Source of the DNA: Oscillatoriaceae cyanobacterium M7585_C2015_266
Lineage (GTDB): Bacteria > Cyanobacteriota > Cyanobacteriia > Cyanobacteriales > Oscillatoriaceae
Assembly: GCA_015295835.1 (NCBI GenBank)
Contig: DVEG01000022.1
Coordinates: 1-46,326, forward strand
Direction: 5' to 3'
Length of the DNA stretch: 46,326 nucleotides
The notes beneath the pieces were generated by a model. That model was not told the origin of the DNA. It made no database searches and saw only the letters and a program-made list of their open reading frames with translations. Below are positions 27,835 to 30,384 of the stretch, piece after piece. The position numbers were made by a program, and so were the translations under genes. Within the stretch, counting starts at the first letter, position 1. Each line of letters begins with the position of its first letter.

Positions 27835-27850
27835 TCTACTGTACAGTAGA
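27835..27850. promoter_or_regulatory. Perfect 16-bp palindrome upstream of sulfite reductase
   Basis: TCTACTGTACAGTAGA reads identically on both strands. It lies 408 bases before the sulfite reductase ATG. Its half, GTACAGTAG, recurs at 28244-28252, just before that ATG. This symmetry suits a homodimeric regulator. Which one is unknown. Confidence 0.5.
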
Positions 27851-28041: not shown

Positions 28042-28203
28042 AAGATGGAAAGATAGAACTTAATTTCGACTGGATTGCCGGGAATAAGACGCCCGCTGAA
28101 TGGGGAGAAATGCTTGAAATCACCTCCTCCCTGGTTGAATCGGTTGCGGGCGGGAAGTACTCTTGGCAAGAGCAGCCTTTTCCCAGGCAGCCTTCCGCCC
28201 AAT
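28042..28203 (+). other. Structured leader or short protein-like frame before sulfite reductase
   Basis: CGCCCGC (28090-28096) can pair with GCGGGCG (28146-28152), enclosing GGGAG/CTCCC (28103-28107, 28127-28131). The right arm can instead pair as GGGCGGGAAG (28148-28157) with CTTCCGCCC (28192-28200), so two structures are mutually exclusive. The same bases also form an open frame of about 53 codons (28042-28203) with protein-like content (DWIAGNKTPAEWGEMLEI) but no start codon. Neither reading is proven. Confidence 0.3.
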
Positions 28204-28257: not shown

Positions 28258-30384
28258 ATGGTTAACGTAAAAAATCCCACTCCTACCGAACGCAAGCTTT
28301 CTAAGATAGAAGCTATCAAAGAAAAAAGCAATTATTTGCGCGAACCGGTGGCAACTGAGTTGCAGCAAGAAACAACGCACTTCACAGAAGATGGCGTTCA
28401 GATTCTAAAATTTCACGGCTCTTACCAGCAAGACAACCGCGATAATAGGGTGAAAGGGCAGGAGAAAGACTATCAGTTTATGCTGCGCACCCGTAGCCCA
28501 GGAGGGGTGGTTCCCCCACAGCTGTATCTGACGTTAGATAGGCTTTCTGACGAAGTAGGCAATCACACTATACGGGCAACTACACGGCAGGGATTTCAAC
28601 TACACGGTATACTCAAGAAAAATCTTAAACAGGCGATCGCGTCTATCGTTAAAAATATGGGATCGACTTTAGGAGCCTGCGGCGATCTCAACCGCAATGT
28701 GATGGCGCCGCCAGCTCCTTATACGAATCGCCCGGAATATCGCTATGCCTGGGAGTACGCAAACAATATCGCCGACTTACTAAAGCCACAAACCGGTGCT
28801 TATTACGAGATTTGGCTCGACGGGGAAAAAGTAATCACCGGCGAAGAAAATCCCGAAGTAGTGGCAGCGCGAATGCGGAATAACCACGGCACAAATTTTC
28901 CTGAGCTCGAAGAACCCATCTACGGCAAACACTACATGCCCCGGAAATTCAAAGTGGCAGTAACCGTACCGGGGGATAATTCCATTGATTTATTTTCTCA
29001 GGATGTCAGCTTAGTAGTCATAACTGACAGCAGCGGCAATCTGGAAGGATTTAATATATACGCCGGGGGTGGATTGGGGCGCACGCGCGGCAAAGAAGAA
29101 ACATTCCCCCGTCTAGCAGAGCCGCTGGGATACGTGGCCAAAGAAGATATTTACGATTTGATGAAGGCGATAGTGGCGACACAGCGAGATTTCGGCGATC
29201 GCAGCGACAGGCGGCACGCCCGTATGAAGTACCTCCTAGAAGAATGGGGCGTAGAAAAATTCCGCGAAAAAGTCGAATCTTACTTCGGCAAGCCAATCCA
29301 ACCCTTTAAACCGCTGCCCGAATGGAAATACGAGGATTTCCTGGGATGGCATCCTATGGGCAACGGCAAGCTATTTCTGGGCATTTCTATTCCAAATGGC
29401 CGCATAAAGGATGAAGGCAGCTTCCGCTTGAAAACGGCACTGCGGCAAATCGTGGAGAAATTTAACCTACCCATGCGAGTTTCGCCGCATCAAAATATAA
29501 TTCTCTACGAGATTGAGCCAGACTCCAAGGCAGAAATTCAGCAAATCCTCGACAAATCTGGAATTAAAAGCGAAAAAGACATCGATCCCATAGAACGGTA
29601 CGCGATGGCTTGTCCGGCTCTTCCCACATGTGGTTTGGCCATAACAGAATCAGAAAGGGCCATACCTGGTATACTGGATCGGGTTAGAGCATTGTTGGAC
29701 AAGCTGGGTATGAAGGATGAGTATTTTGTCATCCGCATGACTGGCTGCCCCAATGGTTGTGCTCGTCCATATATGGCAGAATTAGGGTTTGTCGGCAGTG
29801 GCCCTGACACTTACGAGGTGTGGCTGGGAGGCTCTCCCAACCAGACACGGCTGGCAAAACTCTATTTGGAAAAGCTATCCATTAAAGATTTGGAAGCTTT
29901 TCTAGAGCCTATTTTTGTTTACTTCAAGATGCATCGGCTTGCCGATGAGAGTTTTGGAGATTTTTGCGAGCGCGTCGGCTTTGAAGCGATGCGTCAATTT
30001 ACTACTACTTACTTAGCTGATTCGAAGATGACGACCGAAACTAACGAAACCGAAGTGACTTCTACTCCTACTGCTAATACAAGCGAACTGGAAACTCCCA
30101 CTCCAGCAGCAACCGAGCCAGAAGCTCCCGCAGCAGTCGCGACTGAAACTGAAAATCCTGTTGCTCCTGCCTCAACGGCAGCCGAAAATGGCCAAGCAAG
30201 CGCCCCAGCGCCGGAGACAACTACAACTATAAATACAAACAAAATTCGGCACAGGGTAAGCCTTCGCCATGAAGTGTACATACAACTGAAAGCCGAGGCT
30301 GAGCGTCAAGGTAAGCCGCTAGTACAACTGGCTACAGAGATAATCGAGGCTTACTTGAAAACCTTGAATAAGGAAGAAACCTAA
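28258..30384 (+). CDS. sir: Ferredoxin-sulfite reductase with C-terminal RHH-like extension
   Basis: Reduces sulfite to sulfide with ferredoxin electrons in sulfate assimilation. Residues 1 to about 590 form the siroheme/4Fe-4S enzyme: the N-terminal ferredoxin-like half includes [17 protein letters not shown], and the cluster/siroheme ligands are in CPALPTC and [17 protein letters not shown]. After the catalytic part comes a low-complexity linker rich in T/E/P/A (about 595-655). The final 46 residues (663-708) read as a ribbon-helix-helix motif: strand [10 protein letters not shown], helix [11 protein letters not shown] and helix [16 protein letters not shown]. Typical cyanobacterial Sir is about 635-650 aa, so this is about 60-70 residues longer. 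RHH domains usually bind DNA as dimers. The fusion frame is continuous, and the linker codon use shows no break. rsmE follows downstream. Confidence 0.92.

Follow-up and report, generated by a model that had tools for sequence, protein, structure and literature searches.

Can an everyday metabolic enzyme also act on genes? The question is raised by the sulfite reductase gene (sir) of the window, the whole 46,326-nucleotide stretch of DNA that was analysed, because its product (Sir) carries what we identify as a ribbon-helix-helix (RHH) domain of the repressor type. The open reading frame (28258-30384, forward strand) starts with ATG and encodes 708 residues. The initial annotation had described it as an intact Sir followed in frame by a low-complexity linker and a strand-helix-helix segment, and the ORF, the profile match of the enzyme and residues 664-702 confirmed this layout. 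Residues 1-585 (28258..30012, + strand) form the catalytic part, with NIR_SIR Pfam domains. Residues 7-585 aligned with positions 3-581 of the 581-position NCBIfam model TIGR02042 (ferredoxin-dependent sulfite reductase) at 1045.9 bits for a curated cut-off of 731.5; since this full-length match lies above the cut-off, the enzyme is complete. The linker covers residues 586-663 (78 residues; 30013..30246, + strand) and is rich in threonine, glutamate, alanine and proline. In the whole-protein model residues 590-664 had a pLDDT below 50, while both tail helices were at about 83. The tail itself comprises 45 residues (664-708), in frame after the linker: an RHH domain delimited by profiles, predicted structure and structural alignment (residues 664-702; 30247..30363, + strand), made of a strand RHRVSLR (664-670) and two helices (about 671-684 and 688-702), then, from the ORF list, six terminal residues (703-708) and the stop codon (30364..30384, + strand). 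R664 is encoded at 30247-30249 and R666 at 30253-30255. The same in-frame tail segment was present in 30/30 Sir loci, the window's own plus 29 from relatives (40 genomes searched; a sequence pattern caught 26 and the remaining 4 were recognised by eye). This, together with the low dN/dS reported below, places the tail beyond chance. A second copy of the tail was not detected in the same genome at E 10.

Linker length ranged from 7 to 262 residues across 137 loci, with a median of 19. The longest linkers, of 198-262 residues and rich in Thr, Pro and Gln, were observed in genome G336 (L111/L060), a Microcoleaceae MAG (L143) and a Trichodesmium MAG (L170). The linker of L111 is repeated. The RHH domain is kept in these loci, L111 and L170 sharing 37/37 identical residues.

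The RHH identity of the tail had initially been proposed from its pattern only, and was borne out by Pfam, PHROG and PDB profiles, by a model of the tail and by two structural searches of this model. Compared alone with Pfam, the window tail matched RHH_5 at E 0.004, but with 17.3 bits, under the curated cut-off of 26; its match to an Arc-like repressor PHROG was at 2e-5, and this same PHROG was matched by 26/37 tails at E 0.001. When 22 tails were compared with Pfam, RHH_5 was found for 11, a FitA-like RHH for 8 and RHH_1 for 5 at E 0.1 or better. Searched against the PDB with a limit of E 10, a profile built from the tails of 22 relatives retrieved 14 sequences; the best was AvtR (2.8e-5), an RHH protein, followed by a CopG-family protein, ORF56 and ParG. 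In the model of the tail (57 residues, single chain, pLDDT 85.7) only the two helices were formed, with high confidence; the strand 664-670 was absent from the single-chain models of both the tail alone and the whole protein. An RHH strand takes shape only in the dimer. Foldseek placed ParG, MatP, ORF56, PutA, CopG and Arc among its first rows, none of its matches reaching E 0.001 (best 0.027). VIA-align ranked the DNA-binding domain of PutA (2gpe) at the top with a Z of 6.4 over 48 residues, a value below 8 that may reflect merely a common arrangement; further RHH antitoxins and repressors came next, along with a few plant TCP factors. The strand-helix-helix fold is thus represented by two confident helices and by RHH chains as leading structural matches. 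Each of these lines is weak to moderate alone, and their agreement supports the assignment of the tail as an RHH domain.

The structural alignments also indicated which residues could face DNA. Two DNA complexes were aligned by VIA-align over gapless ranges, PutA (2rbf, model residues 11-54 with chain residues 3-46) and AmrZ (3qoq, 11-57 with 16-62). R664, R666 and S668 fall on PutA residues 5, 7 and 9, which presumably touch DNA; Lys9 of PutA is reportedly named in the title of a study. As model residue 1 is Sir residue 652 and the alignment is gapless, the same three residues correspond to Lys18, Val20 and Arg22 of AmrZ, described in an excerpt of PMC3325190 as reading bases.

We then asked how common such a tail is. 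It had been assumed that ordinary cyanobacterial Sir ends before this segment; this was wrong. The tail is not unusual, and in the window's order a Sir genome without it is the exception. Among 386 genomes drawn across the phylum, 190 encoded a Sir at E 1e-100, and at least 118 of these 190, among the matches listed, carried the tail within the Sir-length frame, a survey of best matches that a very weak tail may escape. Among the matches listed, the tail was found in at least 99/100 Sir genomes of the window's order and at least 19/25 of the other families of the class outside f41, and in none of the 59 Sir genomes of this small-genome family f41 or of the 6 of a distant family, f53. The C-termini of tail-less proteins were read in 7/7 genomes outside these two families, 8/59 of f41 and 0/6 of f53. 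A tail special to this genome is ruled out by the relatives and by this survey. In a scan of 80 named loci, 36 had the tail in an intact frame, carriers including Microcoleus, Nostoc, Planktothrix, Prochloron, Trichodesmium and Pseudanabaena; in L178, a Richelia MAG whose reading frame is broken, it lay in another frame, and one locus (L176) was truncated by the contig end. The tail was missing from 9 cyanobacterial loci (two Calothrix, Chamaesiphon, Hyella, Adonisia, a Xenococcaceae, a Pseudanabaenaceae and two Synechococcales MAGs), from 23 loci of Prochlorococcus or small Synechococcus type and from 10 loci of other phyla (Planctomycetes, Meiothermus, Gracilimonas, Chloroflexi). A Sir tree with 131 rows showed at least 6 changes of the tail state, with losses in several lineages; we read this as probably one gain within cyanobacteria followed by several losses, the deep branches being unsure.

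Some side observations were made in the course of this survey. Three nearly complete genomes of family f29, in the same order (G035, G106 and G228), had no Sir at E 1e-100, the best match in G035 being at 1e-18; they may have a different route of sulfite assimilation. One tailed cyanobacterial Sir, 62% identical to the query, sits on a contig assigned to a Tatlockia MAG (L147), probably through a binning error. Two tail-less genomes, G305 and G203, encode stand-alone 88-residue RHH-like proteins (positions 1465-1731 of loci L237 and L238); neither genome yielded a split-off tail, the best RHH (E about 5e-5) differing in strand sequence.

Conservation of the tail was quantified on 26 disjoint pairs of relatives. 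Pooled dN/dS was lowest in the enzyme core (0.077) and highest in the linker (0.318); the tail, at 0.116, is under purifying selection. R666 was invariant in 63/63 dereplicated tails and in all 168/168 tails. Among the 63 dereplicated tails, L677, K678, A695 and Y699 were nearly invariant and the exposed helix positions varied. Position 664, aligned like 666 with a base contact of AmrZ, is mostly arginine, and the third contact position, 668, is variable. By alignment, R666 would be the central DNA-facing residue of the strand, on the face that a DNA binder would be expected to keep.

If the tail binds DNA, the region upstream of sir is an obvious place to look. The initial annotation had pointed to a perfect palindrome (CTACTGTACAGTAG, 27836..27849) as a possible site of autoregulation. 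This did not hold: none of the 24 other loci listed has an exact copy in its sir upstream region, and as an operator candidate it was rejected, copies with 2 mismatches occurring in 4 of these 24 loci at scattered positions. Within its own genome the palindrome was matched with at most 2 mismatches at 7 places, against 4 for the reversed pattern, and it is probably not part of the mechanism. An unbiased dyad and k-mer count over 75 tail-bearing upstream regions revealed another, shared element, ATTCCGACCGGATTACCGG, in which ACCGG steps lie 8 bp apart and which is mostly located 20-200 bp before sir. The window copy (ATTTCGACTGGATTGCCGG, 28063..28081, + strand) lies 195 bp before the sir ATG. 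The element was present upstream of sir in 11/11 genomes searched; 7 further matches, all with 3 mismatches, were spread over 5 of these genomes, and the reversed-pattern control also gave 7. It looks like a candidate undescribed control site of sir, whoever binds it, and occurs at tail-bearing and tail-less loci alike. No Rfam match was found at sir.

The presence of the element was then related to the residues of the tail. Elements were called with a weight matrix derived from sites of the same loci and a threshold set from shuffles (0.5% of 980). The element was present in 116/136 loci with R664, in 0/21 with Q664 and in 0/6 with E664, that is in 0/27 loci with a Q/E664 tail. These counts are redundant (225 Sir loci, 221 of them extending upstream by 100 bp or more, with several genomes counted twice), exclude loci whose Sir core is shorter than 500 residues (including L176 and L178) and can miss an element where the upstream stretch is short. 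On a dereplicated tree (118 rows, 108 of them tailed) dependent evolution of Q/E664 and the element was favoured, with a likelihood ratio (LR) of 14.3 and a nominal p of 0.0065; the optimiser is rough (LR 14.3 in one run, 13.3 in another) and the backbone support of the tree is weak. When scored as arginine or not, position 664 reached an LR of 16.7, the first of 19 scorable tail positions and above all 60 control columns of the Sir core (maximum 12.1, median 3.7; 60 of 67 candidate columns used). Contact position 668 did not covary with the element (LR 1.8), and 666 is untestable because it is invariant. Independent-pairs tests had too few pairs for a decision (2 supported contrasts on the dereplicated tree), and part of the 664 signal may thus be the history of one clade. 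In the Q/E664 clade (L020, L021, L023, L026, L028, L030, L087, L149, L152, L156, L166 and others), position 670 is often P or S. No second element stood clearly above shuffles in 11 loci of this clade.

These data bear on the idea that Sir adjusts the expression of its own gene through the RHH tail, which would read ATTCCGACCGGATTACCGG with R664 and R666 on the CCGG steps. The enzyme level, and perhaps sulfite or the redox state, would then feed back on sir; where R664 is replaced by Q or E the element would be lost as well, and in the few lineages that have the element without the tail it would persist either because another regulator uses it or as a remnant of recent date. The evidence for and against is mixed, and we therefore consider such autoregulation more doubtful than probable. 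A separate trans-acting regulator may read the element instead, the tail binding DNA elsewhere or generally, as a nucleoid tether; we hold this to be a serious contender, though short of an even chance. Strong elements are indeed kept in the tail-less lineages L095/L096, L106/L107 and L105/L150/L172 (marginally in L098), the element is absent from 49 tail-bearing loci, and presence of the tail is uncorrelated with the element (LR 2.0, p 0.73) on a tree with only 10 tail-less rows, since the trees omit the 50%-identity Sir of f41 and the outgroups. General binding would also have a precedent, as the RHH protein CdbA can be a nucleoid-associated protein according to extracts of PMC7156744. The covariation of residue 664 with the element speaks against such a separate regulator. 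With roughly one good copy in each of the 11 genomes, located at sir, the element points faintly to a local regulator; a scan of 10 neighbouring proteins from three tail-less genomes brought none to light (L307, L308 and L309; a subset of ORFs, two of the ten proteins without Pfam match, L310 left out).

The function of the tail might also be limited to dimerising Sir or docking another protein, its DNA-facing strand being a relic of its origin. RHH cores do dimerise, the RHH of PutA makes that enzyme a dimer (excerpt of PMC5293562), the tail does not follow the sir element from genome to genome and no other DNA target was identified. Yet the sole invariant residue, R666, lies on the DNA-facing side of the strand while the exposed helix positions vary, and residue 664 covaries with the element, so that we find this explanation quite unlikely. 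A neutral, decaying appendage would fit the repeated losses of the tail and the highly variable length of the linker. It is strongly disfavoured by the selection acting on the tail and by its breadth, and its fold is confidently predicted. A search with the tail profile 3' of 59 tail-less Sir loci, over 2.5 kb or as far as the locus extended (in many cases about 500 bp), returned one strong match, that of the frame-broken MAG L178. We regard neutrality as very improbable.

By analogy with PutA, the explanation that we favour, with a measure of confidence, is that the tail dimerises Sir and binds DNA, with no particular target specified. An ancestor of a normal ferredoxin sulfite reductase would have gained a C-terminal RHH domain, and the RHH of one Sir would pair with that of a second. 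In known RHH proteins the two chains intertwine; with such pairing, flexible linkers would therefore tie two reductases to one two-stranded sheet. This sheet would enter the DNA major groove through residues 664, 666 and 668, and Sir would moonlight as a DNA-binding enzyme, much as PutA does. First among the candidate targets would be the promoter region of its own gene, where Sir could tune sir transcription, whatever the sign of this regulation; general nucleoid binding is the other candidate. Dimerisation and DNA binding, which we infer, are favoured by the computed RHH profiles and fold, the C-terminal position of the domain, the invariant R666, purifying selection, breadth, the covariation of 664 with the element and the PutA precedent. 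Arguing against them are the single-sequence Pfam score, the Foldseek E values and the VIA-align Z, together with the strand left unformed in a single chain, the variable 668 and the loss of the tail in several lineages.

Whatever its function, the RHH tail on cyanobacterial Sir is real, widespread and selected. No published account of a Sir-RHH fusion was found in the open-licence PMC papers searched; the fusion of an enzyme with an RHH domain is already known as a type, and the Sir version appears to be new. Its interest rests on its breadth, on an invariant, putatively DNA-facing arginine and on a possible, undecided link to the conserved sir promoter element. If the favoured explanation is true, a housekeeping enzyme of many cyanobacteria would be a DNA-binding protein, and the tail would provide a clue to the control of sulfite reduction at sir.

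The favoured explanation would also give the nucleoid role of plant Sir a parallel in bacteria that relies on another domain. The initial annotation had already pointed to the plant enzyme: plant Sir is the chloroplast nucleoid protein DCP68 and is reported to bind and compact DNA (extracts of the review PMC4154389), its C-terminal region reportedly being important for localisation to the nucleoid (Kobayashi 2016, as cited in a portion of PMC6249382). The two share the enzyme, but the solved maize Sir (583-residue chain) has no RHH tail and aligns to residues 10-584 only, and none of the 14 PDB sequences retrieved with the tail profile is a Sir chain; no homology of the tail to the plant DNA-binding part is therefore shown, and a shared DNA behaviour would be convergent or based on the core. 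The small RHH proteins (CopG, Arc, ParG, ORF56, AvtR, AmrZ, CdbA and the antitoxins) share fold and strand pattern with the tail, and CdbA is described as acting on the nucleoid (extracts of PMC7156744), but they stand alone, whereas in Sir the RHH domain ends a metabolic enzyme. Both the window Sir and PutA combine a redox enzyme with one RHH in a single chain, and the RHH of PutA is also the top structural match of the tail. In PutA, a trifunctional protein of proline catabolism, this domain makes the enzyme a dimer and attaches to the control region of put, so that PutA can repress its own genes (excerpt of PMC5293562). The enzymes differ, the domain is N-terminal in PutA and C-terminal in Sir, and the Sir linker is disordered; any operator, dimer or redox switch of Sir is putative. 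For the mode of action presumed for Sir, PutA is the nearest system, beside which Sir would stand as another fusion of an enzyme with an RHH domain.
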